Assembly (NCBI GenBank): GCA_900095095.1
Contig: FMBT01000311.1
Span: 1-64,000, forward strand
Origin: Fragilariopsis cylindrus CCMP1102
Lineage: Eukaryota > Bacillariophyta > Bacillariophyceae > Bacillariales > Bacillariaceae
DNA length: 64,000 nucleotides
Direction: 5' to 3'
Every line of letters begins with the position of its first letter. The stretch's first letter is position 1. Positions 20,948 through 47,204 of the stretch are shown piece after piece. The notes beneath the pieces are model-generated. The model made no database searches and was not told the origin of the DNA. It worked only from the letters and a program-made list of their open reading frames with translations. The position numbers were made by a program, and so were the translations under genes.

Positions 20948-21206
20948 GAGAACTAAGTGTGTTGGCATATAAGAATAGTATGTATTTGTACTACAAAACT
21001 AATCGTGAATAGCAACAGGTCCTAAAGATTATAGATGGTGATAAATGTACTTGCTATCTATATATCTATAGTAAAGTGCCACTCACATCTTGAATGAATT
21101 TTTTTTGTTCCCATTTTTTACATGTATCGACACGTATATGTGCCTACTTCCTTGTTCATCAGTGATCGGACGCTTCTCCCCTTCCCTACAACAAAACTTA
21201 TTGTTT
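20948..21206. other. Short spacer between convergent genes
   Basis: 259 bp holding the 3' ends of the PPR gene and the following minus-strand gene. Nothing else was recognised. Confidence 0.5.
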
Positions 21207-23450: not shown

Positions 23451-23971
23451 CGTGAGTTATCTGCTGTTTATCTTTTTCTTTTACGACAAACAAAAATGAG
23501 GGGATTTGTAAGTCTAAAACCCTTTGCTTTTTTATTTTTCAATACAACAGAAAGTAGATCACTGCCGGTAGTACTAAATATCGGATGGCAGACGTTGAGT
23601 TTTCGAAATTCCATTCGACAAATAAATTATTTAAAGCATACAGTACGGGTAATCAAATCGTGTAGAGCTTTAGTCGTGAAAAAAAAATTGAGTCAAAATA
23701 ACTTACTCGTATCTGTGACTGGAATTCTTCTCGTGTTCGCGTTTTTTGTTTACCGGTAAAAAAAACAAATCTTTTTCCTTCTCAATAATTCATTCTGTTA
23801 TGTTGACTTAGTATCAAGCCTTACTGAACAGTAAAGAACAGCTATAGTAAAACTTAACATAGGAATTAATTGATGACCATACAGTACTGCGAATCAAACA
23901 ATCGTACCTGCATTGATTGTTTATTCTTTATTTTAATATAAAGTTGATACTACGAGAGAGAAAAAAGAAGG
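23451..23971. promoter_or_regulatory. Divergent promoter spacer
   Basis: 521 bp between head-to-head genes, therefore containing both promoters. It is AT-rich and holds no other recognised element. Confidence 0.5.
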
Positions 23972-25777
23972 ATGGTGTATCGGATATGGAATTTCTCCCT
24001 TGTGTTGGTTGCAATTGTGATAGCGATTGCATCATCGTCGTCGACGTTATTGATAGGGATAGCACAAGCGCAAGCACAGCAATATAATACTGATCATGGC
24101 AGTAGTGGCAGTAGCCGTAGTGGCAGTATTAGTGGCCGTAGTGGCAGTAGTATTAGTGGCAGCAGCAGCAGCAGTAGTATGATATATTATGATCTGCCAT
24201 CATTTTTACTATCACTTAATGTTGAACGAAAAGAAAGTGATAACAATGATAATAATAATGGACAACTTATGATTGCATTTCAAGATGTATTAAAAAATAA
24301 AATACAATATCATATTGAAGAATTTTTTGGAAATAAATTTTTGGTAAATAGTATTGGGATCATACCAAGTTCTATTGAAGTTGATTTAGAAGAATCATCA
24401 TTGGTATGGAAAGAATTATCAACAACAACAAACGGCAGTAGCGAAGAAGAAGCAATTATATTTTCAAAGAATTATGAAATACGTGGAACATTTTCAAGTA
24501 AAATAAAGATTGAATTAGTCGAAGTAGAACCGCTCAGCATATCAGCTACTACCACAAATGAAGAAACAATACCGACGTCGAAACAACCATCATCAGTATT
24601 TCTTACACAATCATTAATGAATTTATTCTTTCTAGAGGCATTCCAACCACAACAACAATATGATTTACTACATTCATTTATGGCTTCATCTTTATTACAA
24701 GATATTAGTAATGTCAATATAACAGTATTAGAGGATGGATTCGTTTATCATAACAACAATGGTAATGATGAAGGTGGTGGAAGAGGAGGAGGAATCTTTC
24801 AGACTGATTATGATGATGACTTTTCTAGTCATGCAGTGTCTAATAATAGTAATAATAATAATTACAGTAGTATGATGACTCCTATTATGATTGTGGGTCT
24901 TACATTTGTAACTCTTTTTTTCACTGCAATCTTTGTTATGTGGTTTTATTTATGTATTTTGATTATGAACAACAACAAAAACAATAACAACTATGGTACT
25001 ATTACTAGATCCCTATTACAACTGTTTTCGAATAAGTTATCAAACAAAAATAATGATTGTTCTTCTTCATCATCTGTAACGGATACAAATAATACCAATA
25101 ATTCGTCGTCATCTTCGTCATCTTCATCAACATCTTCTGATTTAATTGACGAAGAATCATCATTATCATCCGACCGTTATTTAGATGCTTGGGCTAGTTC
25201 CCTTACAAGCATTCCATCATTACGGAATACTAATGATCCTACCACTACTACTACTACTACTAGTAGTAGTAGTAATAATACAACGAAAAAGAATATGAAC
25301 AAGAAGAAGTTGAAGAAAAAGAAACGAGGACAACCAATTGTCCGACAAGCATATTTTAGACCAGGTCATGAACATTCTTCATCGTTGGGTTGTATCGTAG
25401 AGGCGGATAGTGAAAGTTGCTCATCTAGTCTACGAACAACCGATAGTAGTAAGAAGAAGAGCAAGAAGAATAGGCATATTGTAAATAATAACAATACACG
25501 CAACTGTAATAGCTATAGAGTATCATCTTCTTTGATGCTACCAGAAGAAGACGAAATAGAAGAAGAAGAAGACCTTTCGAATGGAATAGAAAGTAAAAAC
25601 GAAGCAGACGAAACGGCGGTAACAACAAGCTCCCCTTTTCTATTACCAACGATGCAGCATTATGATGAAAAACAACTAGTAGAAGACGTTTCATTATCCG
25701 ATATTACGTGTACAACTACTATGTCCTGGGACGAGGAAACAGGAGCATGTCGTCAACATCAATACTGTGACATATAA
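23972..25777 (+). CDS. Single-pass type I membrane protein, unknown function
   Basis: 601 residues. Signal peptide at about 1-33 (cleavage near AQAQAQQ). A Ser/Gly-rich linker leads to an ordered lumenal or extracellular domain (about 70-260) containing LMIAFQDVLKNKIQYHIEEFF and LMNLFFLEAFQPQQQYDLL. One transmembrane helix lies at about 301-327 (IMIVGLTFVTLFFTAIFVMWFY). The cytosolic tail is Ser/Thr/Asn-rich with a Lys block (KKKLKKKKRGQ) and the motif SSDRYLDAW. The same order (signal, ecto domain, one helix, low-complexity tail with SDRYL) recurs in the 1457-residue product at 52797-57170, so the two may belong to one family. Confidence 0.75.
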   Translation: MVYRIWNFSLVLVAIVIAIASSSSTLLIGIAQAQAQQYNTDHGSSGSSRSGSISGRSGSSISGSSSSSSMIYYDLPSFLLSLNVERKESDNNDNNNGQLMIAFQDVLKNKIQYHIEEFFGNKFLVNSIGIIPSSIEVDLEESSLVWKELSTTTNGSSEEEAIIFSKNYEIRGTFSSKIKIELVEVEPLSISATTTNEETIPTSKQPSSVFLTQSLMNLFFLEAFQPQQQYDLLHSFMASSLLQDISNVNITVLEDGFVYHNNNGNDEGGGRGGGIFQTDYDDDFSSHAVSNNSNNNNYSSMMTPIMIVGLTFVTLFFTAIFVMWFYLCILIMNNNKNNNNYGTITRSLLQLFSNKLSNKNNDCSSSSSVTDTNNTNNSSSSSSSSSTSSDLIDEESSLSSDRYLDAWASSLTSIPSLRNTNDPTTTTTTTSSSSNNTTKKNMNKKKLKKKKRGQPIVRQAYFRPGHEHSSSLGCIVEADSESCSSSLRTTDSSKKKSKKNRHIVNNNNTRNCNSYRVSSSLMLPEEDEIEEEEDLSNGIESKNEADETAVTTSSPFLLPTMQHYDEKQLVEDVSLSDITCTTTMSWDEETGACRQHQYCDI

Positions 25778-28210
25778 TGAATGAATGGTTATAGTATTAA
25801 TTTTATGTTTTCCTGTTATTTTGGCAGAGATTTCGCAGAAGTAAAAAGAGATAGGAGGAATGCCTTTTTATCTAAATCTTGGTCGGGAGACCTTCCGATA
25901 TACGTAGAAGGTAATTGTATCCATATGAGGATGAACAATATCCAGAATTTAGAGATGTTAGTATATTACTTTATATTATAGAATATAATCCTAGTAATAA
26001 ATTAATTAAGTGTTTTTAAATAAAACCTGAGACTTCCATGTTTCTATTTTCTTTGAATGAAGCGAATGAATCAACCACCTCAGACCTACAGGCAAAACAC
26101 TTTAACTTTACTCGTTTTTGAACACACTTTAACTTTTTCATGTTCTGTGGTACTTGCTACCTGCACCACTCCACTTTCTGGCATTCGAAACCATCCTAGC
26201 ATGTATTAAGTCCCAATCAGATGGTATATTCTGAGCTTAATATACATTGGGTGGATACCTAGACCGAATTTTGAGGCGCTAGGTATGTGTTCTTCACACT
26301 TGAAGGTGTTAAAGGTTGGTGTGATACAGCCTAGGACATGGGAAATGGCCCATTTGGTGGTGGTGGGGGGGGGGGGGGGGGTTTGTGACCTAGCACACTC
26401 AAAGGAATAAATTATCCCAAATTAAGCGTATGGGGTTGACCATATACACCTAGGGCAATATAAACTTGGCAAGCTATGGGCAGGACTATGCTGATGTCGG
26501 CGCTAAAGTGAGAAGACCTGTTTGGGGTCTAAATGACCCTTTTGGGGGCTTAGCACACCCTGACACCTTTCTAACCTCCCTACAGCCCTAAGCAATAGTT
26601 GGACCTTGTACCCATAGGTATCACGTTGAGCTCCATATAATCTTTCAATGTTATTAGGTCTGTATTGATGGTGCATCACTGCCTTGATTACACGCGCACT
26701 TGGCACTTAAAGAAATTGAGTATTCTTAAAGGGGTGGGTTATGACCCATGACACCCCAAATACATGTATGGTTACCTGAAGCAATGATAGAATCCAAAAC
26801 CTTTATGAGTTAGGTTGATGCCTAGCTATTTTATCTGGGACTCAGCATACCTGGTATGGACGCTGTAGAATCTCAAATATCTTTGCAACTTCTGCATTTT
26901 GGGCTATTTTATGTCTATTCTATTGTTCCCCACCCAAACCCCACCACCAATATGGCAAATATTCCAAGTATTGTGGTGTATTTTGACCATACGCATATAT
27001 GGAAGGTATCTGGGTGTTCAAACCAGCCTAATTCTGAATGATACTTTTGAGCATGGAAATATGACATGTTGACCAAAATGCAATGTTTGTGTTCTGAAGG
27101 CAAGAATAAGGCAAGTATGAGGGATCATGACCCTTGGTTCATCACCTAAGGGTACAAGATGGATGACTGGATGGTATTTTGGTGCACCATACTGGTTCTA
27201 TAACCTAAAGAGAAGTTGTTTGATATTCCAATAACCAAACTCCACTGAAGAATTTGTGAGATGAAAATGATACCAATTAGAATTACTTTGGTCAAGTTAG
27301 GAGGGAAACAAAATGTGTTAGTATACTATGCAGATGTTTTTCCACAGGTCCCATCTGGTGTTGTCCTCTGTGACAATTTCAAATGAGATATTTTGTTGTT
27401 CATTTTATTTGTTGTTTGTGTGCCTGCCATAGCAGCAATCACATGGACAGAAAAGTAGTAGGAGGCACACAGAATGTTCCAGTATACTATGTGGATGTTA
27501 GTGCACCCAGCCTATCTGGTATTGTTGTCTGCAATCCTTTCAAATGAGATATTTTGTGTTCATTTCTGATCAAAAAACAGGTTGTTGTTTTTGCGTGCCT
27601 GCCAAAAAATAGAAATGAATTTTATTCCCCAACCACAGGAATAGAAAAGTTGTCTGAGACAAACACAATGTTCTAGTACACTATGTGGATAATATTGCAC
27701 CCTGCCCATTTGGTATTGACCTCTGCCACCCTTTCAAATGGTATTAACAATATTTTTGTACAAAATATTTTGTCCCCAAATACAAATTTTTGTGTCCCCA
27801 AATACATTTTATTTTCGGGGCCCCCTTTATGCTATTTTTTTGGGGGATTATTAATTATTACCAGTTATTACCAGTTACACTTTTAGGGATTAAAAATATA
27901 GTTAAAGAAGAAAATATGACAACGTTACGAGGAATGAGACAGACGTCCCAAAATTGAATTATTAATTTGAAGAAAGTACTGCCTAGTATGCTACTGCTCA
28001 AACATGGTTGTACATTTTTTTTTGTTCTGTTTGGTTCTGAGTTTTGCGTATGCAGTTGGTAATGGATAAGACAGATATTTTGTTTATTATTTTATGTCTG
28101 CATATTATTTATATTTATATATTTGGATTATTTATTATTTACTTCTTTTAGTTTAACGTACATTGCACGTATCGTATCGTCACGTATTTTATTAATTTAA
28201 CGTACGTACT
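25778..28210. other. 2.4 kb non-coding island with degenerate tandem repeats
   Basis: No gene was recognised. The composition from about 26040 differs from neighbouring spacers: more G/C and T-rich words such as TGACCC, and little of the (CAT)n-like simple sequence of local genes. It holds a run of 17 G at 26365-26381 and, from about 27318, three imperfect tandem copies of a unit of 160-195 bp. The words CCCCAAATAC and TTTTGTGTCC recur near 27776-27806. It may be the remains of an old mobile element, but no coding remnant identifies it. Confidence 0.5.
27318..27740. repeat. Three imperfect tandem repeats
   Basis: Unit starts are near 27321, 27482 and 27676 (spacings 161 and 194). Shared words, in order, are GTATACTATG, then CC.ATCTGGTATTG, then CTTTCAAATGAGATATTTTG, then GTGCCTGCC. 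The third unit is incomplete. Confidence 0.75.
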
Positions 28211-30355
28211 TCATTCACCAAAATATTTATCAATGATTTCATCACTATTAGGAATTTTAAATCCAATAGGGTTTGAAAGTTTAGATACCCATTGTTTTAA
28301 AAATATCATATCATTTTCATATTGTGTTATTAATGTACGATGTGGATTTGTTTTTGATTCATATTCTTTTTGTTTCCTTGCGGTGATTTCCTTGTCAGTA
28401 GCAAATATCATGGCCTCGTCTTCATCACCATCATTATCGTAATTATAATTATCTATGATTACTGGTGCCTTGTTAATAACAATAGTGGTATCGTTATTCT
28501 TGTTCTTGCTGTTACTATTCTTGTTGTTGTTATTATTCGGTTTCTTCTTGTTCTTTTTCTTTTTGGAAGCATTAGTAGTAGCAGAAGCAGAAGCAGCAGT
28601 AGATGACAGTGCTGCTGTTGCTGCTGTTGGTCCTGCCGCTGATGGTACTGAATTTCCGCTACGTAACATTTTCAACAAATCTTGACTTGCTGTATTATTG
28701 CTATTAGATGTAGTAAACACAGCAGCAGCAGTAGCAGTAGCATCATTAGCAGCGAATTTATCTTCTTCGTATCCTTCTTCCTCATCAATTGATTTTGCTT
28801 CTTCTACCACATGCCCCCATGGTGATGCACCATGTTGACTAAAGAATGGTTGTAATGCGCCATCATTATCAAGATCACTACCACGACGAACTAATGGTTG
28901 ATAATTTGCAGCAATATTATTATTATTACTATCAGTTCCAGTAACACCAGGTCCACCACTACCACTATCAGTACCATTTGAATTCATAAAACTACCACCA
29001 ACAATATGAAATGAATGTGGATCTAATCGTTCATCACCATTCCCAAACCCTTTTTCAACAAACTCATGTGGATTACCATCATATTCCACAATCCGACCAC
29101 CCATTAGTTTTGAATTTGTATCAAACATTTCCTGTTCTGTCCAACGTGTCGCATCATCCACATTATCCATTAATCCTGCATCTAATAAATTAGATCGTTG
29201 TTTATTATCTTCTTTTATAATGTTTTTCTTTCCTCTAGTAGTAGAAGACTGCCTGTCACGTCCGGATGCTGACTTGTCACGTCCGGTAGATGTAGTTGTA
29301 GACTTGTCCCTGCCACCACCCTTTGGACGAGATTTAGGCCTTGACTGATTTTTACCACCATTATTACCACCACCCTTATTATTATTACGTTGTGTATTTT
29401 TAATCCATTTTTTTAATTTACCAATAAATGGTAATACCGCAAAAGTTTTATATTGTTCTTTGATATCACGTATATCAATCCATTTAATATTATCCACTTC
29501 TTTTCGACAGACTGGTTCAAATGGAAAATCCATCGGAACATTATAACAGACATAATAGGTACGTCGTTTCCCAGATGGTTGTTCGACGTGTGTTAACATA
29601 TTTGATTCCTCGTCATGTAATGGATGTTTCCATGTTATTTTATTCTCACTAGTATCAGAATCAATCCATTCTTTTGTTAAACCAAATAAACAATGTGGAT
29701 CAAATCCCGTTTCTTCATATGTTTCACGTGCGGCAGCATCAATACCAATTTCATTTTGATTTATTTTACCAGCGGGAAATGTCCAGGTATCACTTTTATG
29801 GAATTGACACAATACCACATGTGTATAATCTTTATTTAGTAAGATACATCCATAGGTGGATATTTTACGTTTATAAATGGAAAATTCTTTCCATAATTTT
29901 TGAAAATCATAGGAATTTAATAATGTGCTAAATTCAAATAATACTTTGGAAAATGGTTTTAAATTGGCATATCTTGGCAGTGTACAACTTCCTGGACATT
30001 GTTCTTCTTGTTTATCACAGATCATATCTTCATAATACCACCAGGCTTGTTCTAATTGAAAAAAAATCCGTTCCGAGGTATTTAATTCTTCCGATGGTAA
30101 ATTTAAGATAAATCTTGTATGGAGTTCATCTAATATATCCTGATATTCTTCTTCATTGATTATTTTTTGTGTTTCAATTTTAGCAGCTTCTTCCAAAGCT
30201 TGTGTTTCAAGTAATGCAGCTTCTTCCAAAGCTTGTTTTTCCAGTAATGCAGCTTTTTCTAATGCTTCTTGTTCTGGATTTCTTGATAACATTGCAGCAT
30301 AACTCATTGGAACAATAGGTGGTGGTGGTGGTGGTGGTGGTGGGAAAGCAGACAT
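28211..30355 (-). CDS. DCP2: mRNA decapping enzyme DCP2 (Nudix hydrolase)
   Basis: 714 residues. DCP2 removes the m7GpppN cap, releasing m7GDP and committing mRNA to 5'-3' decay in the cytoplasm, often in P-bodies. Residues about 72-160 form the N-terminal regulatory domain (ELHTRFILNLPSEE, then FFQLEQAWWYYED). The Nudix box spans 196-218 and fits GX5EX7REUXEEXGU exactly, with catalytic E211, E214 and E215. Box B follows (RKEVDNIKWIDI, about 295). Ahead of the fold are a run of nine prolines (residues 5-13) and three Ala/Glu-rich helical repeats (about 28-62). The C-terminal half is Gly/Asn/Ser/Lys-rich disorder, usual for binding decay factors. A transposon lies about 0.4 kb upstream. Confidence 0.96.
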   Translation of the reverse strand: MSAFPPPPPPPPPIVPMSYAAMLSRNPEQEALEKAALLEKQALEEAALLETQALEEAAKIETQKIINEEEYQDILDELHTRFILNLPSEELNTSERIFFQLEQAWWYYEDMICDKQEEQCPGSCTLPRYANLKPFSKVLFEFSTLLNSYDFQKLWKEFSIYKRKISTYGCILLNKDYTHVVLCQFHKSDTWTFPAGKINQNEIGIDAAARETYEETGFDPHCLFGLTKEWIDSDTSENKITWKHPLHDEESNMLTHVEQPSGKRRTYYVCYNVPMDFPFEPVCRKEVDNIKWIDIRDIKEQYKTFAVLPFIGKLKKWIKNTQRNNNKGGGNNGGKNQSRPKSRPKGGGRDKSTTTSTGRDKSASGRDRQSSTTRGKKNIIKEDNKQRSNLLDAGLMDNVDDATRWTEQEMFDTNSKLMGGRIVEYDGNPHEFVEKGFGNGDERLDPHSFHIVGGSFMNSNGTDSGSGGPGVTGTDSNNNNIAANYQPLVRRGSDLDNDGALQPFFSQHGASPWGHVVEEAKSIDEEEGYEEDKFAANDATATAAAVFTTSNSNNTASQDLLKMLRSGNSVPSAAGPTAATAALSSTAASASATTNASKKKKNKKKPNNNNNKNSNSKNKNNDTTIVINKAPVIIDNYNYDNDGDEDEAMIFATDKEITARKQKEYESKTNPHRTLITQYENDMIFLKQWVSKLSNPIGFKIPNSDEIIDKYFGE

Positions 30356-30742: not shown

Positions 30743-30750
30743 ACCGTTGA
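30743..30750. repeat. Target-site duplication, left (ACCGTTGA)
   Basis: Eight bases identical and in the same orientation as 36869-36876, immediately outside the inverted repeats. Confidence 0.92.
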
Positions 30751-30803
30751 CAGGGGTAATAAATTTTTTGAGGGGTGCGCCACGCACAAAAATTCTCGCG
30801 GCG

Positions 30804-30877
30804 CATGTGTAGCCAAAAAGTCAAAAGTTGACCTCAGCTGATTTTTTTTCAATCACAATTTACTAGACATTACTAGT
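30804..30877 (+). repeat. Inner terminal inverted repeat, left
   Basis: Begins CATGTGTAGCC, includes AAAGTTGACCTCAGCTG and ends TAGACATTACTAGT. It is nearly identical to the reverse complement of 36692-36765. The distance to the element end is 53 bp here and 103 bp on the right. Confidence 0.92.
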
Positions 30878-31070
30878 TAAAAGGTGAGAAAAAAATAGAA
30901 TTCTTTTGTGAACTTCTTGAGCAATATTGACCCTTACACTAGGTTGATAGACTAATATGGGTGTTCTAAAGACATTGACAATAAGCGTTTTTGCATTTTT
31001 TGGTTGGTTAGGCCTGTACAGGGTGTACTTTCCACAAGCTCGCAAGTGACGAGCATTCGTGTTTTCGTCG

Positions 31071-31151
31071 AAAAAAAATCGTCTGTCCGTCTGTCCTTTT
31101 TTAAAATTCTTGGAAAAAAATCGTCTGTCCCCCTGTCCTTTTTAAAAAAAT
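31071..31151. repeat. Two tandem sub-terminal repeats in the transposon
   Basis: The unit A-run, TCGTCTGTCC, then CTGTCCTTTTTTAAAA occurs twice at a spacing of 42 bp. A related word (GTCTGTCCGTC) occurs in reverse orientation near the right end (about 36825). Such sub-terminal motifs are candidate transposase-binding sites. Confidence 0.65.
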
Positions 31152-31813
31152 TCAAGTCCCACATATTTGAGTTTTGAGTCACCAATCAAAATTGCCTACC
31201 GTTACACCACTTGGTACACCACTTCGAACACCAAACACTAACAAATAAAATGATTTCCCCTTTACAAACAATATTAGCTACTGTATTTAAGATACAAAAA
31301 ACCTAATAATACCTACGGTCTGTCGCCCTTCGGCCCTGTGTGCAAAATAAGACAGCCCGAGAACCCTCTGCTACTTTATACAAGATTTGGTTAGTAGTAA
31401 GTTACCTTCAGTGATTTCTGGGTGTCTACAGAAATTTAATTGTTCATTGGGTGGATTGAGTGTGTTGTAATTAGTCTTTGATTAATTGTTTCACGAACGC
31501 GCTGAAGACCATTTGGCTGTATATAAAATTACAGTTATTTGCCAGTAGGTATCCACCAATTGTAGTTTGGGAGGGGATCGCGATCTTAGACAAGATTGCC
31601 GAGGAATCAGATTGCAACTAATTTGGGAGTTGTCCTAGGTAAATTTAAAACATAGTCGCGTGCGACAGTTATTCCTAGGGAGTCGAACAAATCTGACCGG
31701 TGCCAACCCCCGAGATCAAGCTACAAAGTAACAATTAACCGTACGAGCGTTTGTTCTCTCCCTCATTTGAGAGCTTTAATACACTGCCTTACCGTACATG
31801 CACATAACTTACA

Positions 31814-34800
31814 ATGGAAATGGAGTCTCAACAAGAATTTTCTAGTGATCATCGTGATTCACTATTCATTGCAACAATGGAGTGTCTAAAAACAAGTGAA
31901 GAAGAACTAAAGCCATCTGCAACTCCAAAAACAGTACCATCACGTGCTTACGCTTGCATTTGTGATTGGGAAGATTGCCGCTCAATTCAAGAACAGTGTC
32001 ATACCCATCTTACAAAAGATCATGTCTGGAACAAAGCACCTTATCGTTTTCATTTATCAAAACCTACAGATAAAAGAGATGTACAAATCAAATCACTTGC
32101 CTTCAGAGCTGCTGTTTTCCATAATTTGAAAACAGCTCAAACCAAACAGATTAAATGCAAAAACACATTCCGTATTGCATACCATCACTTTTCAATACCT
32201 TTGTTAGAAAACAACACTTATCGAACCACATTGCTGAGCGGGCAAGATGCGCGTGACTTGGAGAAAGATACAAGGTTAAAATCTACAGGGTATACAGATA
32301 AGTCAAGTACTGTGGCTACACTACTAAGATCAATACCTGAATCTGTATTAACTTTGTCAGAGGAAGAGAAAGAACAGTACAGTAGAAAATATGTGCAAGT
32401 GCCACTAGTTACTATAACTCAGGTTATTGAAGAATTGGAATCCTACCACACCCCTCGTGGTGTTAGAATGAAAGATGATATTGCTATTACACCCAGGAAA
32501 TTGGATGCATCTGATAGTAGAAAACGAAAACCAATGACATTGGGTGGACTGTCAACTAAAAGACAGAAAATACAGCAGGAACCTTGTGATATCTACAAGA
32601 GTAATGAATCAATTTATGAAGGTCTCATATCCGAGTATGACAAATCCAAGAAGTCCTCATCACCCACTGAATTTCAAGATTCTGAATCTGTACAACGTGC
32701 AGTAAATGACATCTCATTTCTGGCTAGAGCACATGAGGATTCTCCCAGTTCATTTGAACTAGAGGAAGGTAAAATATTCCATACCTGCCTTTCCTATCCT
32801 CAACCTGAAAGCTGTGAAGGCTTCAAAATTTTATCATTACACACTGATAGAGTTGAATGTGATACATGCAAAAAGAACACACGTTACAAACAGCGTCACG
32901 AACAAAGAAAGGATGTTGATTCTGGTAACAGAGAAGCTCATAGCTCAAGAGTCCGAATTGGATATATGTCACCAGAAGGAAAAGATAGACGTGTGCAAAA
33001 TGTGATAACAAAAAAGAAAAATCAGCAGAAACAAATCAAGAGATTACAATTGAAATTAAAGCCACCAGAAGATAAGGAGATGGTTGTCATAAACAGTGAT
33101 GAGGTCAAAAGTGTATTAAAGGAAGCCTTTGATCATATCTTACTTAAAAAGGACAGGGTTCAGCTTAAACAATTAATAGTAAAAACTTTGCTTGAATCTG
33201 AACTAGATGATGGAAAGAAAAACAACATGGAGCCACAGGAAGTAGATATGTTTGCTACTAGAGTTTGTACACTCCTGGAAGCCGAGTCCAAAAAGCTATC
33301 TGGTGACGACAAACAAGTACGATATGATTTCCGTATCAAGCGTCTTGCATTGTCACATTTCCTTGAATTTGGTATATCTGGTTACCAAAGATTAAGAGAC
33401 AGCTCACTTGAGATTCTTCCAAGTCAAAGAACCAATGAGCGTGAATTTGCTCACTTGAAGGGCGGTGAAGGAGCACATGCTGCTGTATTCTGTTCTCAAT
33501 TTATTGATACAATTAAAGCAGGCAAGGAAGCTGGAAAACCATCATCTGATGCAGAAGCCGTGGTGCAACTAATATTTGATGAACTAAAAGTGAAATGTGG
33601 AGTAATGTACAATCCAAGTACAGGTAAAGAATCTGGATTTACAGCAAGTAAAAATGGCACTAGTATGTGTTTTGCAGAGGAGATATTAGATGTAGCAAGT
33701 GCAAGCCTGAATGAAGAAGCAGAAACCAATCCAGAAGATCAGGATTCCACCAATCCAGAAGAAGATAAGGAGGATAGAGGTACATATGTTGGAGCTGCAA
33801 CATTTGCCAATGTTTTCAGGTTAAGAACTTGCTTCAATCAAACATGGAATGTTGCTTATTTTTTCAACAGTGGCAGCTTGAGTGGGGATGATATTGTAAA
33901 ACAGTTACTGATGGTTATTACAGCCTGTGAATTGGTTGGTTTGATAGTCAAGTTGTTGATGTCTGATGCAGGTGGAGGCAACACTCGCGCCCTAGCATTA
34001 CTCACCGGAAACAAATGCAACAATTTGAAACCAGGAAAACCAAAACTAAAAAGTCTTAGGTTTGTCAATCCTTTGAGCCCGTCCAGATATATTTGGGATT
34101 CTCTTTGTTCGGTACATGGCTTGAAGAACCACAAGAATATGGCTTGTAACAAAGACTTAGTGTATAAAGATAAAACATTATCTTGGAATGTCATCATTAA
34201 GCTGTTCTATCATCTGAAGGAAAACTTTGAAAACTCAGGGAATGTGCATCAAGTGCGGCATATGAGATACTGTGTTGCTTTTCCAGATCAATTTACAAAG
34301 CAGAATGTCAGCGATGCAAAACAACCATTTGAAGAAGCAACAATTGCATTCCAATGTCAATGGCTGGCAAACAGAATGAACTGTTCAAGTGATTTTTTTG
34401 ATAATGTACTAGAGGAGTATAGAATTAAGGATGGTTATTCTGATGAAATTCTGAAGGCGAAAGTTGAGTTGTTGAAAATTCACGCATCAACTCTTACTGA
34501 GAACAAGAAAGAATTTGAGGATGAATTAGCCTTCCTTGAATTTTCTGTTATGATGCATTTCATTTTCATTGCACGTCAACTCAATAAAAATGCAAGACTT
34601 GTTTTAACTGAAGAATGTAGAAAGCGTGACAGTGTGAATGGAGGAATTATTCTCTCACTGAATATCGATAAGGAAATGGAAAGAATGGAAGAGTGTATTA
34701 AGTACTTTGACATATGGAGACTGTGGAGCAAAGCTCAAAAAAACCATCTTGAGAATTTTGTTGGAGTAACGAAATGGAGTCAACTATGTGTTTCAAGTAT

Positions 34801-35602
34801 CACTTTGCGTAACCTTAAATTATCTCTGTTTGGTTTTCTAAACTACGCCAAGGATGTTCTGGAGAATTACCCTGCATTGAAGTTTGTTCCTTATCTTCAC
34901 AACAATTCAAGTACACTCGAGTCCCAAAATTCTTACTTTAGGGCTACTGGAACAGATACTTCATTGTTACTACCCAAAGGTCTTGTTGCCAGCAATATTA
35001 AACAGACAACCAAATTGATATCTTCTACATCCTATTCAAGAGAAGATAGTACAGTAGAGAAAAACTTGTTCACATCTAACTTTGATTTAACACTTGGTTC
35101 TAGAGTTAGAGAAGACTGGATACAAGATTTAATTCAAAGAAGAGGAGCAAATGAAAGAATTGATGATACCTCAAGTGGTAATAGAGTCCATATGTTACCA
35201 GAAAGCATAGAAAAAACTGCAAAAATGAAGGCTCTCATAAATTGTATTGGAGATTGTGAGAGTTGTAACAGTTATTCTTCCACATTACTGCAGATTCAAG
35301 GGTTCAAGGACTTTGCAAAAGCATCTCATCATACTGAAGCTTGTAAGAAATGGTTTGAAAATATTATCTTAGGAGAAGATGAAAAGAACTTCAATAGTAT
35401 CTGTCAACAAGTGAATATGAGGTTGCTAAAGTTCCTTATAAAAACTGCAGAGGAAAGAAAGTCCACAAAGACAGATAACAGTCTTAGAATGGTTTCATTC
35501 CAGATAAAGTTGATAAATATGTTACAAGATCCATTACTTGATGGAATAATACTAGGTACTGTAAATGAACATGAAAGAAAGTGCATTGTATATCAGTTAT
35601 AG
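31814..35602 (+). CDS. P-element/THAP9-like transposase
   Basis: 1262 residues, one exon, first ATG. It would cut and paste the element in the nucleus. An N-terminal C/H-rich region (CICDWEDC...PYRFHLSKPTDKRD...IAYHHF, about 44-125) resembles a divergent THAP zinc finger, the DNA-binding domain of this superfamily. The segment RIKRLALSHFLEFGISGYQRLRD...LPSQRTNERE (about 510-545) matches the typical lead-in to the catalytic core. Candidate acidic residues are D589 (LIFDELKVKCGVMYN), D718 (LLMSDAGGGN) and E1036 (STLESQNSYF). Between them is the expected insertion with NPLSPSRYIWDSLCSVHGLKNHKN. Drosophila P transposase and human THAP9 are shorter; the extra length lies mainly at the N-terminus. 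Confidence 0.9.
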   Translation: MEMESQQEFSSDHRDSLFIATMECLKTSEEELKPSATPKTVPSRAYACICDWEDCRSIQEQCHTHLTKDHVWNKAPYRFHLSKPTDKRDVQIKSLAFRAAVFHNLKTAQTKQIKCKNTFRIAYHHFSIPLLENNTYRTTLLSGQDARDLEKDTRLKSTGYTDKSSTVATLLRSIPESVLTLSEEEKEQYSRKYVQVPLVTITQVIEELESYHTPRGVRMKDDIAITPRKLDASDSRKRKPMTLGGLSTKRQKIQQEPCDIYKSNESIYEGLISEYDKSKKSSSPTEFQDSESVQRAVNDISFLARAHEDSPSSFELEEGKIFHTCLSYPQPESCEGFKILSLHTDRVECDTCKKNTRYKQRHEQRKDVDSGNREAHSSRVRIGYMSPEGKDRRVQNVITKKKNQQKQIKRLQLKLKPPEDKEMVVINSDEVKSVLKEAFDHILLKKDRVQLKQLIVKTLLESELDDGKKNNMEPQEVDMFATRVCTLLEAESKKLSGDDKQVRYDFRIKRLALSHFLEFGISGYQRLRDSSLEILPSQRTNEREFAHLKGGEGAHAAVFCSQFIDTIKAGKEAGKPSSDAEAVVQLIFDELKVKCGVMYNPSTGKESGFTASKNGTSMCFAEEILDVASASLNEEAETNPEDQDSTNPEEDKEDRGTYVGAATFANVFRLRTCFNQTWNVAYFFNSGSLSGDDIVKQLLMVITACELVGLIVKLLMSDAGGGNTRALALLTGNKCNNLKPGKPKLKSLRFVNPLSPSRYIWDSLCSVHGLKNHKNMACNKDLVYKDKTLSWNVIIKLFYHLKENFENSGNVHQVRHMRYCVAFPDQFTKQNVSDAKQPFEEATIAFQCQWLANRMNCSSDFFDNVLEEYRIKDGYSDEILKAKVELLKIHASTLTENKKEFEDELAFLEFSVMMHFIFIARQLNKNARLVLTEECRKRDSVNGGIILSLNIDKEMERMEECIKYFDIWRLWSKAQKNHLENFVGVTKWSQLCVSSITLRNLKLSLFGFLNYAKDVLENYPALKFVPYLHNNSSTLESQNSYFRATGTDTSLLLPKGLVASNIKQTTKLISSTSYSREDSTVEKNLFTSNFDLTLGSRVREDWIQDLIQRRGANERIDDTSSGNRVHMLPESIEKTAKMKALINCIGDCESCNSYSSTLLQIQGFKDFAKASHHTEACKKWFENIILGEDEKNFNSICQQVNMRLLKFLIKTAEERKSTKTDNSLRMVSFQIKLINMLQDPLLDGIILGTVNEHERKCIVYQL

Positions 35603-35619
35603 TAATTCTGAATGAAGAA

Positions 35620-36369
35620 ATGGAAAGAAAGCAAAGGAGGGGGTTAATCAGGATGGCAGAAGTAAGGAAAGAAGAAGAAGGAGGAAAAGAAAAACCACTT
35701 CACGTCAGAGATGTAAATTTGATGTTTGGTTGGGCCATTTTTCATTTGAGATTGATAAAAATACGAAAGAAGCGTGAAGAGACTGTGGCCAATGAGAAGA
35801 CAGAAAAATTACAAGATGAGATTGATTTCCTCTCCAACATGAGGATGTATGCAGAAGAGGCACTTCTATCAGAAAGTTATCTTGATAAATGTTATGATAG
35901 TTTTCTCAGATCATCAAATAGGGGATTCATGACTCTTGTATCAGAAGAATACTTTGATTTCGGAGTTGAACTAATGAAGAAGGTATCCTCCTCAATTACT
36001 GTAGAGAAGTTACAGAATGATCTAGATGTTACGGCACCTGCAAAGGAAGCAATACTAGAAGACAATGGACTGATAACAAAATTCATAGAATGTAGCAGGG
36101 AAAACAAATGTTTAGAAGAGGTGGAGAAGAAAAAATTATACAATGAGTTGGTAGAAAAAGTTGTGAATGCCAGATTCTGTGAGGAGTTCCGTGCGTACAG
36201 GGCAGAATTTACAGCTAGAGGAAGCGAAAATAAGCAAAACAATTTTACTTTACGGCAAACTTTGGATTCATATGCCCGTAAAAGACAAGCAAGTACGGAT
36301 AAGAATAAAAAAAGAGGAGCCAAAAAAAGTGGCGCAAAAAAAGATAGCAGCCAAAAAAAGAAGAAGTAG
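35620..36369 (+). CDS. Second ORF of the P-type transposon, unknown
   Basis: 249 residues from the first ATG, 17 bp after the transposase stop and in another frame. It is charged and mostly helical, with a Lys/Gln-rich C-terminus (KKRGAKKSGAKKDSSQKKKK) that could bind nucleic acid or direct nuclear import. No family was recognised. Because the two frames sit so close, it may be a separate accessory protein, a downstream exon joined by splicing near the transposase 3' end, or a partly decayed C-terminus. Length and open frame argue that it is or was translated. Confidence 0.6.
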   Translation: MERKQRRGLIRMAEVRKEEEGGKEKPLHVRDVNLMFGWAIFHLRLIKIRKKREETVANEKTEKLQDEIDFLSNMRMYAEEALLSESYLDKCYDSFLRSSNRGFMTLVSEEYFDFGVELMKKVSSSITVEKLQNDLDVTAPAKEAILEDNGLITKFIECSRENKCLEEVEKKKLYNELVEKVVNARFCEEFRAYRAEFTARGSENKQNNFTLRQTLDSYARKRQASTDKNKKRGAKKSGAKKDSSQKKKK

Positions 36370-36691
36370 TAGTAGAAAAATTAATCATATTATAATATAA
36401 TCATATTCTATTAACTTTCAAACTGTATAACAACTTACTTAGTAGTAGTAGTAGTTGTAGTAGACTTGCAGTGGTAGTTTACTGTTAGTATAGTAAGTAG
36501 GAAGTCAATATGTACTAATTGAGAGATGACATGTTTTTCTGTTGAAAATAATTATATATTATGCTTGTATTCAACAGAAATGGTTAATATATTCCTACTC
36601 CTGGTTAAAAATGGGTCTAGAAAATACATTTAAATTTTAATTTATAATGAATACTTTGTAAGTTGCATGCTGTTGAAAGTACTATAGTTTT

Positions 36692-36765
36692 ACTAGTAAT
36701 GTCTAGTAAATTGTGACTGAAAAAAAATCAGCTGAGGTCAACTTTTCAATTTTTGGCTACACATG
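36692..36765 (-). repeat. Inner terminal inverted repeat, right
   Basis: Reverse complement partner of 30804-30877. The remaining 103 bp to the right end include about 50 bp, with an AT-rich stretch followed by CGCGCGCGTGCGG-like sequence, that has no counterpart at the left end. Confidence 0.92.
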
Positions 36766-36868
36766 GGGTTTTTGAAAAAAATAATATTTTCAATTTTGCC
36801 TGATTTTATCGCGCGCGTGCGGACGACGGACAGACGTCGTGTCGCACCCCTCTTTTTTATGACCCCTG

Positions 36869-36876
36869 ACCGTTGA
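36869..36876. repeat. Target-site duplication, right (ACCGTTGA)
   Basis: Exact direct copy of 30743-30750. Confidence 0.92.
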
Positions 36877-37455
36877 CATCTATACAGCAAATTATGATGC
36901 ACGCCTTTCAATCGCTTTAAGTGAAGAATACATACGGTACGGAGACGGGCAGACGAGTAGAACAAACAGAACAGAGTTCTTTTTTCCTTCGAGGAAGGAA
37001 GGGGAGGGGGATTCATTAAAAGCGGGGGAGAAAGTTTGTAAATGTACCACTTCGCGCGATGAACCTTTTGCACATAAACACGGTAGCTGATATACACCTA
37101 CTTTTACACCTACTGTAGTCGTGAAACGCAAGTCTTGCTAACACAAAATTTTGTCAAGCTTTTTTAGGATTTTCGATACACAGATCCGTTAAAATGTGAT
37201 TGGATTTGACATTATTATTTATTTGAACTGCGAAAGAGAAGAATCAAAGAAAGTCATCATGCATCTATAGCTAGGGTAATCTTCTTCTTATCATTACTAC
37301 TGTAGACTAAGATGAAAAATCATACATTTGGCTTGGTACTATAATATATTCACACATTGAAAATGAAATAAAGGAAGGCACTCATCCAATCTTTTTCTCA
37401 TCGATCGTTGTTGCTACTCGTAAACTAAATCTGAACAATCATCATACTAGATTTG
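36877..37455 (+). promoter_or_regulatory. Upstream region of the gene at 37456
   Basis: 579 bp between the transposon and the next gene. No RNA gene or further repeat was recognised. It was presumably part of the DCP2-side divergent spacer before insertion. Confidence 0.5.
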
Positions 37456-38712: not shown

Positions 38713-39235
38713 ATACCGCATTTATGTATCATTATGACAACGGCAATATGATTTCGGTACCTCTCAAGGTGCTTCTAGCCACCCCTTTTAATAGACCAAC
38801 TACCCCGAGCCGAATTAGAAGAAACAAAAACACACAACTACATGATGCTTTGGCACGGATGGCCCTATTATCCGTTTTATAGAAGGGTTACCTACCACTA
38901 TTCCATAATTGTATCCGAAGTACAGGGAGAGAGAGAAAGAGAGAGCTATATTGACGCTCTTTCTAATGTCTGCTACTGCAGTACTGTATCTCTTCTGTTG
39001 TATTGACATACTACAGTTATAAATATTATTAGTGTATGATTAAATATCCGATGACTATTCTACAGAGTATTAGATGATCATATTACTGGTAGGCCTAGGA
39101 GGCATATACTCATGTAGATATTATGGTCTGATTGAGTTGATGCAATGTTAGTGAATTTATTTATTAATGTATGCTGCAATATTATTACGTGTTTTTCAAG
39201 TTATTTTTTTGTTTTCTGCAATTTCGCGACTACAG
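38713..39235. other. Spacer; duplicated from 39014 on
   Basis: Nothing is recognised in the first 300 bp. From 39014 the sequence is the start of tandem unit 1 and matches 41635-41815. Confidence 0.6.
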
Positions 39236-40131
39236 CTATGTTAATTGATTAAATAATAATGCGATCACCTCCTCAATTTCCGCTTTTTCCACATTAAGAC
39301 AAGCGGCATCGCCTCCTGCTTCAGGTGGACAAAAACCTATAGTAGAGAAGAGGAGAGAAGAGTAAAAATAGACATGAGCATTTAAAGTATGTTGGATTGA
39401 AGATGGAACCAATGTAATATGACTTGGGACATACCTGGTACCGTTGTTGCTAACATCACATTTCTGTCTATGTTTTCTCTAGGGAGAATTGCTGTTAGAT
39501 CTACATCTAAAAACGCACTAGGAACCACACTTGGGCTGGAACTTGCTGTACCAGCAGAAGATATAGTCAAAAATTCAGGACCAGTATCAAAGCCGAGAAC
39601 TCCAGTGCCGCCTGTTTTTGTTGCTATTACTGTTGGTACAGGTTCGCCAATAGTAAAAGGAAAGTTACCTCCACTTTTGTAGAAAGCGCATCCACCGATT
39701 AATGGAGCAGTAAGACACAAACTGATATCACAATTGTTTCTCTCAATGAAAATAGGAAATGTACCTTCTGTAATTGTACAAATCTGTGTATACCGAAAAG
39801 GAAGTGGTTCTCCTTCTCTCTCAGGATCAAGATCAAATACATCTCCAGAGATTATTGATCTTGATCCAATAAATGACGGAAAACCACCATCAGTGGTAGG
39901 AACAAGTACAATAGGATCAGCATCTAAAACAACACGAAGGTTCAAGGTATCTGTTTCTAGCGGTGTGGGTGTAGAAGTCGGTGTAGAAGTTGGTGCATCA
40001 GTTTTTTTACTTTTCTTGCTTCTCTTAGGTTTAAGTTGGCGATCCTGTTGTTGTACATCAGTAGCAGCCAAGACGCTACTGGTTGCAAACAGGACGGACA
40101 ATAGTGTCACAGCTTCCATATGAATCTTCAT
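39236..40131 (-). CDS. Small secreted protein, family member 1 (possible AOC/dirigent-like barrel)
   Basis: Two exons, 40131-39435 and 39336-39236 (intron 98 bp, donor GTATGT, acceptor CTATAG), giving 265 residues. Signal peptide at about 1-22 (VLFATSSVLAA), then a Lys-rich and Thr/Pro linker, then a domain with FIGSRSIISGDVF, QICTITEG, NCDISLCL, GGCAFYKSGGNFPF and ATKTGGTGVLGFDTG. The GGTG..GFD element and strand pattern recall the allene-oxide-cyclase/dirigent barrel; this is an inference. Exon 2 adds GFCPPEAGGDAACL, which keeps the family's conserved Cys pair. Paralogs lie at 41816-42685 and 51531-52388. Function is unknown. Confidence 0.82.
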
Positions 40132-41585
40132 CGTTATGTTCTTTTGCTTCTTCTTCTTTCTTCTTTTACGGTATTTACGTCGCTGGAGTTTCTATGAGAA
40201 CAAGCAGAGATCTATTATTTTCGGAAATTCAATATATGAAAATGAACGTGCGTAACACAGAAAGAACACATTACAACGTACCAGGCCCAACAAGTGTTTG
40301 GATCTTGTGTATGAATTACAATTATCGTCCTCTGCCGACCAATTTAAAGTATCCGATCAGATACTGTAGCTTACTGTATGACTATTACTAACTCCGTGAC
40401 CAAAAAAAAAATGATAGTATCGACCATACAGTACTTTGTTCTCCTTTGTGCACCGCTAAAAGTAACTGACATGCGCTCGTGAAGAATTTTCAGACCTCGT
40501 CATCCTTTCATCTTTGACAGCAAAGAAGGATCGCGAAACGAAGAGAACCCTATATATTTCCGTTGAAGCTACTGTATCAGAATATATGATAAAAATCCGC
40601 CAAACAATTTGGTGATGTAAGTGAACGAAAAGTAAAAGCCAATATATGTACACGAACAATTTTGCGCGCCTAACAGATTTCAAATTTTGGTGGATGTTTC
40701 AAAAAAGATTTTCATGGAGCGAAAGCGAATACCACTCACTCATTTGACAATTTCCACGCTTTTATGACGGTGTCGTGAAGCAAAATGTCATCACGTTGGT
40801 GCGTTTGAAGTTAGCTAGGCGGTGATACGGTACAATGACGTACGTACAGCAGTACAATATTTCTTCGTCAAAGGGACGGCGATCTTTTTTATATTCATGA
40901 TAACTGTATTTAGTGTATTTTTTATATCCTGAGGAGGTATGTAGTGTACTGTATGGTAGTTACCACTGTTGTTACCGTACGTACACATAGGTCCTCTGTA
41001 CGACGATAGTACAGTAGGACTATTAATAGTACTTAATAGTACATACCCTCAATACTGTACTAGGTCCTACGGTACATTTAAACATCTTAACAGATAGCAG
41101 CAAGAAATAAGAAATAAGAATTAAGAATAAAGAATGAATGAATGAAGAATCAATGCAATCGAAGATCATCAGTCAATGCAATCAACAAAATAATCATCAA
41201 TTTTAAGCAATCGTAAAATAAAAAAAGGAATATCGTCTACTACTGTCTACAATTATTGTACTTTCATACAGTAGCTCAACGACGACGACGACGACGACGA
41301 CGATATATATTTAGATACATATGTATACATTGAACGACTAGGACTACTTGTGTACTGTACTGTACTGTACTGTACAGATAGATAACGAATCTACTGGAAT
41401 TGTTGGCATACCCAAAGTTTCCCATATTGCCATTGCTAATGTATAAACTAACAGTAAGGTACACGCTACAATACTAGCCGTAACGTAACGTAACGTAACG
41501 TAACGTTGCCTTGCTATAATATAATTACCAACTTATTAAACGAGACAGACAAGAAACAATAAGAAACAACACAAAATTCTTCATT
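40132..41585. other. Duplicated upstream region within unit 1
   Basis: No protein gene. It matches 42686-44581 in order, with (ACG)n at about 41278-41303, (GTACT)n near 41350-41373 and (GTAAC)n near 41480-41505. It presumably holds the promoter of the minus-strand secreted gene and the old promoter of the truncated neighbour. Confidence 0.65.
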
Positions 41586-41636
41586 ATGACGAATAACAAT
41601 TTGAATTTTAGTAATAATATAAATGAAAATGACTAG
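41586..41636 (+). pseudogene. Truncated 5' end of the neighbouring membrane-protein gene
   Basis: After the shared leader (ACAAAATTCTTCATTATGAC), an ATG opens 16 codons (MTNNNLNFSN...) resembling the start of the intact gene at 44582 (MTSNNSNMANQ). The frame ends at the junction with unit 2. It marks where the tandem duplication broke the gene. Confidence 0.7.
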
Positions 41637-41815
41637 TTATAAATATTTTTAGTGTATGATTAAATGTCCGATGACTATTCTACAGAGTATTAGATGATCA
41701 TATTACTGGTAGGCCTAGGAGGTATATACTCATGTAGATATTATGGTCTGATTGAGTTGATGCAATGTTGATGAATTTATGTATTAATGTATGCTGCAGT
41801 ATTATTACGTCTTTT

Positions 41816-42685
41816 TCAACACATATATCCAAATAATGATGCTACTAAGCATTCAATATCAAAATCCTCAGGAAATCCTACGAGACACACGTCATCGCCT
41901 CCTGCTTCAGATGGACAAAAACCTATAGTAGAGAAGATGAACAGAAGACAAATTGTAAATTTAAAGTATGTTGGATTGAAGATGGAATAGATAATGCGTC
42001 GTCGTCAATATGATATGGACTCACCTGGTACCGTTTTTGCTAACATCACATTTCTTTCGAGGTTTACTCTAGGGAGGGATACTGTTAGATCTACATCAAT
42101 ATATTCAGCTGTACCAGCAGAAAATATAGTCAAAAATTCAGAACCAGTATCAAAGCCAACAACTCCAGTGCCGCCTGTTTTTGTTGCTATTACTGTTGGT
42201 ACAGGTTCGCCAATAGTGAAAGGAAAGTTACCTCCACTCTTGTAGAAATTGCATCCGCCTACTAGTGCAGCATTAAGACACAAACTGATATCACAATTGT
42301 TTGTCTCAATTACATTAGGAAATGTACCTTTTGTAATTGTACAAATCTGTGTATACAGAACTGGCAGAAATGCATTACCAGCTGGATCACGGTTTAATGC
42401 ACGTCCAGTGATTACAGATCTTGATCCAATAAATGACGGATCACCACCATCAGTGTTAGGAACAAGTACAATAGGATCAGCATCTAAAACAACACGAAAG
42501 TTCAAGGTAGATGATATTAGCGGTTCTTCAGTTGGTGTAGGAGTTGGTGCATCAGTTTTACTCTTCTTCGCCTTCTTGCTTTTCCTAGGTTTGAGTCGAC
42601 GATCCTGTTGTGCATCATCAGCAGTAGCTGTGGCAGTTGCAAAAAGGACGGACAATAGTGTAACAGCTTCCATATGAATCTTCAT
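41816..42685 (-). CDS. Small secreted protein, family member 2 (possible AOC/dirigent-like barrel)
   Basis: Two exons, 42685-42025 and 41922-41816 (intron 102 bp, donor GTGAGT, acceptor CTATAG), giving 255 residues. It is very similar to the 39236-40131 product: same signal peptide start (MKIHMEAVTLLSVLFAT), same Lys-rich linker though shorter, and the same QICTIT, NCDISLCL, GGCNFYKSGGNFPF and ATKTGGTG blocks. Exon 2 encodes GFCPSEAGGDDVCLVGF and a different, Cys-ending tail (FGYMC). The intron sits at the identical codon in all three family members, so it predates the duplications. Function is unknown; a secreted or cell-wall role is likely. Confidence 0.84.
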
Positions 42686-44581
42686 CGTGATGTAACTTCT
42701 TTTTCTTATTCTTCTTATTCTTCTTCTTCTTCTTATATATACTGCGCTTTGAGTTTATATATTTTGTTTTGCTGTTTTGTATTGTGAACAAGCAGAGATC
42801 TATTTTTTCATTACTGCATCGGAAATTCAATATGCGAAAATTCACCTAACATACAGAAAGAACACACTACTATGCCATATCTCATCGTGTTGACATGCTG
42901 TTGTTGAAGTGTTTGGATCTTGTGTATGAATTATAGTACATATCCTCCTCTGCCGACCCATCAACATTCTCTTCCGTGTACCGATACTATAAGTGCACAC
43001 GCGCTCGTGAGGAATCCTTTATTCTTTGACAGCAAAGAACAAAAAGATTAATCGAGCGCTCGTCAAAGGAATGAAAATCCATTACTGTATATACACACGT
43101 CGTATGTGCAACGCGGAGTGAGAAATTCGATGTGAAGTACTGCTCAGCCAGTTGATCATTTAGATTTTACTTAGACAGCATTGACAAATTGAGATTCTCA
43201 TACAAATCAAATGGGCTGTTGATGCTGACCACCATTATATCATAATATAATATTATATCGCCGATCGTATTTTAGATTTATTGTACAAAATAGAGCGCTC
43301 ATACAAAGAAATCTCGGATGGGGATTCGCGAACCTGGTGTGGCCAATAATATTACATGAAATCTTCCCACACGATGGAGGTGCTACACTACTTACAGTAT
43401 GTTGAAGATAAGATTTTACAGTTATTATTGTCCAATAATTGAGCGCTCGTACTAGCTGTACAAAGAATTTTTGGTTGATGGTGATCGCGAGCGAAGCGAA
43501 GAGAACCCTAAAAATCTACCCAAGTCACTTACTCACTTGCTCACTCACTCACTTACTTACTTACTTGACACTCTCCACGCTTTTATGATGGTGTATCGTG
43601 AAGCAAAATTCCATCTCGTTGCTTGCTTAGCGCGTTTGCTGAAGAGGCTAGCTTGCGGTGATCGGCATGGCAATATTAATGGCGTAAAGTCGTATTTGTT
43701 CTTCGTCAACGGGATTGGAATCTTTTTTTATATCTTGAGCGAGGAGGTATTTAGTGTATGGTAGTAATCGTCCTACACATAGGTACTACTAGTACTAATA
43801 GTACTGTAGGACTATTCATACTACTTCCTCCACTCAGCGCTAAGTTACTACTGCGCGCTACAGTATCGTTTTGAAACCAAAAATCTTCCTCGTAAAATCT
43901 TCGCTTATTTCAATTTTTTTCGTACATTTCGCATTTTTGTTGGTAGAGATTTTAGCGGTTTCAACCAAGCTTTTATTGTTCGATTGTGTAATCCAAACGA
44001 TAGCGCGCAATAACTTAGCGCTGACTGGAGGAAGTAGTACTAAATAGTACCTAGGCTACATACCCTCAATACACTGTTTAACTACGGTACATTAATTAAA
44101 CATCTTTAACAGACATACTAGCTAAGTTAGCAGCAAGAAATACAAATTAAGAATTTAAGAATACTGTACAAGGTACGAATAAATCAATCGATGCAATGCA
44201 ATCAATGCAAGACAATTATTAAAAGCAATCAATCAATCGTAAGAATTTTTAAAAAAAGGAATATCTACTAACGTTACTGTCTACAATTATTGTACTTTCA
44301 TACTACAGTAGCTCGACGACAACGACGACGACTACTGAACGACTACTGAAGTAGTACTGTACAGATAGATCATAACGAATTAATATTTCAACATTACGGC
44401 GCAGTAGCTAGCTGCTGTACACGCACAAAACACCCGCTACAATACTAGTCGTAACGTAAGGTAACGTAACGTGGCCTTGCTATTATATTATAACTACCTA
44501 ATTATTAACATACAGACAAGGAACAAAACAAGAAACAGCAAGAAGAAAGAAAGAAAACAACAAGCACAAAATTCTTCATTC
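42686..44581. promoter_or_regulatory. Duplicated divergent promoter spacer of unit 2
   Basis: 1.9 kb between secreted gene 2 (minus) and the gene at 44582 (plus). It corresponds in order to the unit 1 spacer, with an inserted MITE at 43821-44037. A short ORF near 43471-43764 has no counterpart in unit 1 and is not called. Confidence 0.6.
43821..44037. mobile_element. MITE of Tc1/mariner (Stowaway) type
   Basis: 217 bp flanked by TA on both sides. The left end reads CTACTTCCTCCACTCAGCGC; the right end, reversed, reads CTACTTCCTCCAGTCAGCGC. The inverted similarity continues through TAAGTTA and TGCGCGCTA to TCGTTT, about 45-50 bp. There is no coding capacity. The matching place in unit 1 (about 41014-41045) lacks the insert, so the element entered after the tandem duplication. 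TA target sites and a CT.CTTCCTCC end are typical of Stowaway-like elements. Confidence 0.88.
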
Positions 44582-46818: not shown

Positions 46819-47204
46819 GATGTTGTATGGTTTGCTTAGTCAAAGTTCTTTCTCCGTTTGTTCTTTGGACAGCTTGAAAAATTATCTTTGGTCGGTTATC
46901 CATCTTTCAAGTGATATCGCCGGCTACCGGTCTACCTTTGAGAAATCACTAGAACTACGAAGTAAACTGCAGTAGATAGATTATAATAAACTCTTATATG
47001 AAGAGAGGAATCATCTCTCTTATTTGATTAACTACCTGCACCTTTATCTACCATGTTCGGTACAGTATTGGGTGGTATTCTTATACTAGAATGTCTTCTG
47101 TACAGATTAAATTCTTGCTATCTATTATTGGCACTACCGCATCCAAATAATCGATGCTGATGATATTGTCCTACCGTGTCCTATCAACAAAATATTATTT
47201 ATGT
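46819..47204. other. Spacer between convergent genes
   Basis: 386 bp. From about 47040 it belongs to the segmental duplication shared with 9020-9175. Otherwise nothing was recognised. Confidence 0.5.

Follow-up and report, generated by a model that had tools for sequence, protein, structure and literature searches.

The 64,000-nucleotide stretch of contig FMBT01000311.1 analysed here (the window) carries a complete-looking element of 6118 bp (~6.1 kb) at positions 30751-36868, which sits between a Dcp2-like gene (minus strand, 28211-30355) and an open reading frame (ORF) at 37453. The features of its ends and of the protein it encodes indicate that the element very probably belongs to the P superfamily of cut-and-paste DNA transposons, as a member distant from the animal P/THAP9 transposons and apparently outside animals. 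The exact 8-bp repeat ACCGTTGA flanks the element directly, as a left target-site duplication at 30743-30750 and a right one at 36869-36876. This sequence is found at no other place in the window on either strand, and the match fails when it is extended to 9-11 bp. Both ends start with CAGGGGT, which occurs in the window once on the plus strand and once as the complement, in each case at an end of the element. Both features reported in an initial annotation of this DNA, the exact 8-bp duplication of the target and the inverted CAGGGGT ends, are therefore present, the full terminal repeat being imperfect. The left terminal inverted repeat (34 bp, 30751-30784, plus strand; second block GAGGGGTGCG) pairs with the right one (31 bp, 36838-36868, minus strand) across a single 3-bp gap. 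Past this difference in length, CAGGGGTAATAAATTTTTTGAGGGGTGCGCCACG on the left pairs with CAGGGGTCATAAAAAAGAGGGGTGCGACACG on the right, and the aligned ends contain five mismatches. AGGGGT is present twice in each terminal repeat.

Inside these ends lies a second pair of inverted repeats. The left subterminal arm (78 bp, 30804-30881, plus strand) begins 53 bp inside the left end and the right arm (78 bp, 36688-36765, minus strand) 103 bp inside the right end. The two arms match at 74 of 78 positions, so that the inner repeat first described as 74 bp is real and its actual length is 78 nt. A 50-nt probe taken from it had two matches in the window, its own site and the other arm, versus none in 100 shuffles. 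An 8-bp direct repeat combined with a 7-bp inverted end is not decisive alone, because the window contains five such pairs at spacings of 0.3-12 kb, the element's own pair among them. One of the others lies within the element's inner repeat, two have repetitive duplications (CATCATCA and CAATAATA), and one is at 21029-27203. At a spacing of 6118 bp, an 8-bp repeat was found at 8 of 57842 positions, and the inverted end was present too at the element's position alone. Taken together, the longer stretches of matching at the ends, the inner repeat of 78 bp and the transposase ORF place the element above chance. As a raw count, palindromy at the target site amounts to 12 of 24 positions. Near the left end, at 31072-31148, there are also two 35-nt direct repeats containing TCGTCTGTCC, and a sequence that by eye is similar to them lies, inverted, next to the right terminal repeat (~36817-36840). 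Repeats of this type near both ends are possible candidates for further binding sites.

ORF1 (31814-35602, plus strand) encodes 1262 amino acids of a predicted P-type transposase. A search of ORF1 against 24736 Pfam families, with expect values (E) up to 1, returned one family, PF21787 (TNP-like_RNaseH_N), at E 7.7e-8 and 33.2 bits, above the cut-off of 24.6 bits. In P/THAP9 transposases, the PF21787 model corresponds to the first of the two catalytic halves. A control search with 386 residues from the Drosophila P transposase matched this model and also PF21788 (GTP-binding) and PF21789 (RNase H C-terminal). The match of PF21787 to residues 513-749 alone has an E of 1.9e-9. It is colinear in two stretches, with residues 559-615 corresponding to profile positions 5-58 and residues 661-730 to profile positions 67-136, separated in ORF1 by ~45 residues that are partly acidic. 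Scored singly, the two stretches have E values of 0.001 and 1.9e-4, each under the 24.6-bit cut-off. When seven pieces of ORF1 were searched against Pfam at E up to 10, a single LAIKA match at 0.13 was added to PF21787; HMMER filters hide many weak matches. NCBIfam (E up to 1) and PHROGs (E up to 0.01) returned no families for ORF1 or ORF2, and one PDB sequence match at E up to 10 (E 0.17) was taken as chance. A further control, in which PF21787 was absent from lambda (0/1) and from 14 control genomes, was uninformative.

The first two catalytic residues can be placed by comparison with fly P. Seven motif blocks of the fly transposase were slid ungapped along ORF1 and ORF2, with 200 shuffles for each. 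The D230 block had its best match at residue 589, a score equalled in none of the 200 shuffles. For the D303 block the best match was residue 718, a score equalled in one shuffle of 200. A gapped alignment of residues 530-800 with fly P gave a z of 4.1 (1 of 300 shuffles as good). The locus therefore has an RNase H N-terminal domain of the P/THAP9 type with two aspartates (PF21787, D589 and D718), and it has inverted ends with a target duplication within the 7- or 8-bp range given for the P superfamily (PMC4168063, PMC7776569). Membership of the P superfamily is the preferred interpretation because the PF21787 match and the D589/D718 alignment point to it and the Pfam search at E up to 1 returned neither hAT nor KDZ nor any other transposase family. 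The profile search that the initial annotation had proposed as a check thus supports the assignment, since the single family found for ORF1 is also matched by fly P.

The third catalytic residue is less clear. The top two glutamates within residues 791-1240 are E980, which scores 6, and E1036, which scores 5. Neither is above shuffles, and in a gapped search for this glutamate 237 of 300 shuffles were as good. E1036 is favoured by eye because a helix-like stretch ahead of it, GFLNYAKDVL, and an E...FR..G pattern resemble the fly sequence. The spacing is better for E980, which lies 215 residues from C765 (E1036, 271), the fly distance from D339 to E531 being 192 (PMC8230255). Either E1036 or E980 may be the catalytic glutamate. 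By eye we also located C765-S-V-H768, a C-x-x-H arrangement 47 residues past D718 that may be a candidate for the [C/D](2)H motif, a feature of the P superfamily (PMC8230255). LPSQRT at residue 535 resembles the fly LPSRT and falls within the aligned block; by itself it was not above shuffles (267 of 300 over the whole ORF, 49 of 300 over residues 500-560). The P/THAP9 order of motifs given in the initial annotation is accordingly upheld for D589 and D718 and not for the remaining motifs; LPSQRT and E1036 are where they were said to be, the first without significance of its own and the second without a catalytic role that the scores single out.

A number of results weigh against a P-superfamily assignment. 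Among the fly blocks, that of D339, which corresponds to the [C/D](2)H motif, preferred residue 912 (equalled in 21 of 200 shuffles); K400/V401 preferred residue 1060 (9 of 200), and the F443/D444, E531 and LPSRT blocks were at chance (192, 162 and 165 of 200). For residues 760-1100 the similarity to fly P does not exceed that of shuffles (112 of 300 as good), and the whole core is weakly better than shuffles (9 of 300). The RNase H C-terminal model, PF21789, is absent from the ORF1 matches, though fly P matches it. PF21788 was not found in the ORF1 pieces at E up to 10, as against 1.4e-17 for fly P, and when the fly GTP-binding domain was compared with ORF1 by sequence, 225 of 300 shuffles were as good. 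Single-sequence structure predictions of residues 501-1262 and 40-209 (mean pLDDT 33.9 and 33.8) were too poor for use. Searches of ORF1 for the THAP C2CH spacing, and for a relaxed version of it, gave no matches. Finally, no second copy of the element was found within the 64-kb window.

Two of these points can be qualified. Fly P has an established GTP-binding domain, the role of which in THAP9 is given as unknown (PMC8230255); because of this the missing GTP-binding match was not used to exclude the P superfamily. The THAP-like finger of the initial annotation has to be withdrawn, since the C2CH patterns fail and Pfam finds no THAP family in ORF1 and no family at all for residues 1-249. What the pattern search found there instead is a C2H2-like finger motif, C-x-W-x2-C...H-x4-H, at residues 50-70 (31961-32023, plus strand), which does not have THAP spacing. 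We take the THAP finger to be a feature of the animal members, in which case its absence would count against the description "THAP9-like" and not against the P superfamily. The pattern search also found a C-x-x-C pair at residues 349-352, ahead of a charged, coiled-coil-like stretch, for which a role would be an inference.

The gene appears to continue beyond ORF1. The frame at 35575-36369 on the plus strand is open for 264 codons (ORF2, 262 amino acids from a GTG at 35581), versus a longest open run of 128 codons in 2000 mononucleotide shuffles of 35603-36868. A codon model was trained on ORF1, for which it gives a mean of 0.27 bits per codon; with it, 9 of the 11 ORF2 segments reach 0.30-0.50 bits per codon, and the remaining two have 0.04 (in the first 26 codons) and 0.10. 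Two observations count against a clean reading: in the windows of this model from 35561 and 35621 a third frame outscores both ORFs, and at 35381, inside ORF1, the wrong frame is preferred. The codon model is for these reasons not sharp. In Pfam, ORF2 gave CHASE7 (0.083) and DUF5085 (0.87) alone, both under cut-off, and it was no better than shuffles when compared with a fly C-terminal segment (184 of 300 as good). In the most straightforward interpretation, ORF2 is probably the C-terminal part of the transposase, as a candidate C-terminal exon or a frame-shifted end, and the 1262 residues of ORF1 are probably not the whole protein. The length reported in the initial annotation is correct; "uninterrupted" overstates the case, given a further coding-like ORF downstream in a different frame. 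The two ORFs may be joined by an intron, split by a frameshift or translated as two separate proteins, and because the gene appears split over two frames the element is not established as intact.

One form of the P-superfamily reading is that this copy is already dead, a frameshift having severed its C-terminal part. ORF2 codes like ORF1 but in another frame, and the frames overlap by 28 bp, between the opening of the ORF2 frame (35575) and the ORF1 stop (35602), so that a one-base change in length within the overlap would join them. An ordinary intron is equally easy, however: 137 GT/GC-AG pairs also join the ORF1 and ORF2 frames without a stop, none of them singled out, and there is no internal stop in either ORF. 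We regard a dead copy as possible, but the less expected state of the element.

A transposon of another superfamily, with an 8-bp duplication and a related RNase H fold, is a more distant alternative. Pfam includes hAT and KDZ models, and for ORF1 no hAT or KDZ transposase domain was found at E up to 1. The 8-bp duplication is common to the element and to hAT transposons (PMC2874221), large KDZ elements occur among the DNA transposons of a stramenopile, the brown alga Ectocarpus (PMC12477816; compared here by description), and the lack of similarity to fly P in residues 760-1100 would suit either. Against this stand the P model as the single family for ORF1, above cut-off, and LAIKA as the one other match to the seven pieces. 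A better match to hAT or another superfamily, which the initial annotation had named as grounds for abandoning the P assignment, was looked for at E up to 1 and none was reported. Nor do the ends point to hAT, as that annotation had thought notable: fly P and zebrafish Pdre2 both have 8-bp duplications (PMC7776569, PMC10983969), and the ends of Pdre2 are of the form CA...TG (PMC10983969). On this evidence a hAT or KDZ origin seems unlikely. A domesticated host gene of P-element origin, which a single copy in the window would fit, is highly improbable given that the ends, the 8-bp duplication and the subterminal repeats are kept, as a domesticated gene need not keep them.

In P elements, a DDE transposase whose RNase H fold is split carries out excision and reinsertion, 8-bp duplications are left behind, and the two ends differ in spacing to the transposase binding sites (PMC7776569). 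This scheme suits the present element, in which the ends, the duplication and the unequal placing of the subterminal repeats are seen in the sequence and the first catalytic half is recognised by homology. For a P-superfamily element of the kind proposed here, the N-terminal finger of the enzyme would bind the subterminal repeats and the transposase would pair the two ends. Cutting would then be carried out by a D-D-E active site, with its glutamate, E1036 or E980, placed after a long insertion, and insertion would occur with an 8-bp stagger. ORF2 would supply the C-terminal part of the same protein by splicing, or would have been severed by the frameshift of a dead copy.

P elements are a classic animal transposon, and P families outside animals, including protists, are already in repeat databases. 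For that reason we do not claim the first P element outside animals, and the presence of one is by itself no great surprise. A complete non-animal member would, however, help to decide whether parts of these transposases such as the THAP finger and the GTP pocket are old or were added in animals. The use of GTP as a cofactor is described as setting the P transposase apart from all other transposases (PMC7776569). It is conceivable, and in our view rather doubtful, that the element represents a non-animal P-type lineage in which a C2H2-like finger replaces the THAP finger and a very different insertion domain may work without the GTP cofactor. Among the literature matches listed, judged by titles and starts of abstracts, none dealt with P elements of diatoms or of any other stramenopile. 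The term "P element" does not occur in the main text of the Ectocarpus transposon paper (PMC12477816), which has no P row among the table rows listed, and it has no occurrences in a Tisochrysis paper.

Relatives were also sought in sequence collections. In IMG/VR, three queries (the whole protein, residues 514-749 and a two-sequence alignment) gave 8, 5 and 89 pattern matches, and in GTDB contigs the whole protein and residues 514-749 gave 79 and 31; none was confirmed by tblastn. A tblastn search of plasmids gave no match, and the end and inner repeat had no matches as exact DNA patterns in IMG/VR. A eukaryotic transposon is expected to be missing from the collections of viruses, prokaryotes and plasmids that were searched, and its absence there does not show it to be rare.

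The surroundings of the element are consistent with such a host. The G+C content of the element (0.367) is close to that of the rest of the window (0.369). Eight of ten other ORFs in the window match Pfam at E up to 0.001, with Dph-type, trypsin, PPR, Dcp2, eRF1-type and helicase-associated domains among the matches, and the Dcp2, PPR, eRF1-type and Dph genes indicate that the host is a eukaryote. Proteins rich in Asn, Asp and Ser, together with the helicase-associated domain, look diatom-like and would fit the stramenopile-type genome named in the initial annotation. The ORF at 48829-50253 carries all three eRF1 domains and, from its start, we take it to be probably Pelota/Dom34. One gene is duplicated in opposite orientation at 8211-9118 and 47116-48047 (80% identity over 955 aligned nt; ORFs at 8234-9019, plus strand, and 47205-48023, minus strand). 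Three related stretches (39015-40343, 41635-42961 and 51447-52381) are 69-75% identical, and their ORFs, two on the minus strand and one on the plus strand, start with MKIHMEAV or MKIPMEAV, which looks signal-peptide-like by eye. The ORF at 46-2610 (854 amino acids) has a Tudor-like match under cut-off, is RNase H-like by eye and may be part of a retroelement.

Among described P elements, zebrafish Pdre2 shares with this element the 8-bp duplication, CA...TG ends and subterminal repeats; the Pdre2 ends, CATACCTGTCAAC and its complement, begin with CATACC, whereas those described here begin with CAGGGG (PMC10983969). The likeness to Pdre2 and THAP9 comes from features of the element and not from protein sequences, and no THAP domain was found here. 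Relative to the Drosophila P element, which is 2.9 kb long (PMC7776569), the element is about twice the length. Its terminal repeats are imperfect whereas those of Drosophila P are perfect, 129 residues separate its two aspartates rather than 73, and a THAP finger, a GTP-binding domain and an RNase H C-terminal domain were not detected by sequence. The two elements nonetheless have in common an 8-bp duplication, terminal repeats of ~31 bp and subterminal sites unequally distant from the two ends (PMC7776569), and in both transposases (Drosophila P, PDB 6p5a) the first two catalytic aspartates lie in the RNase H N-terminal domain.

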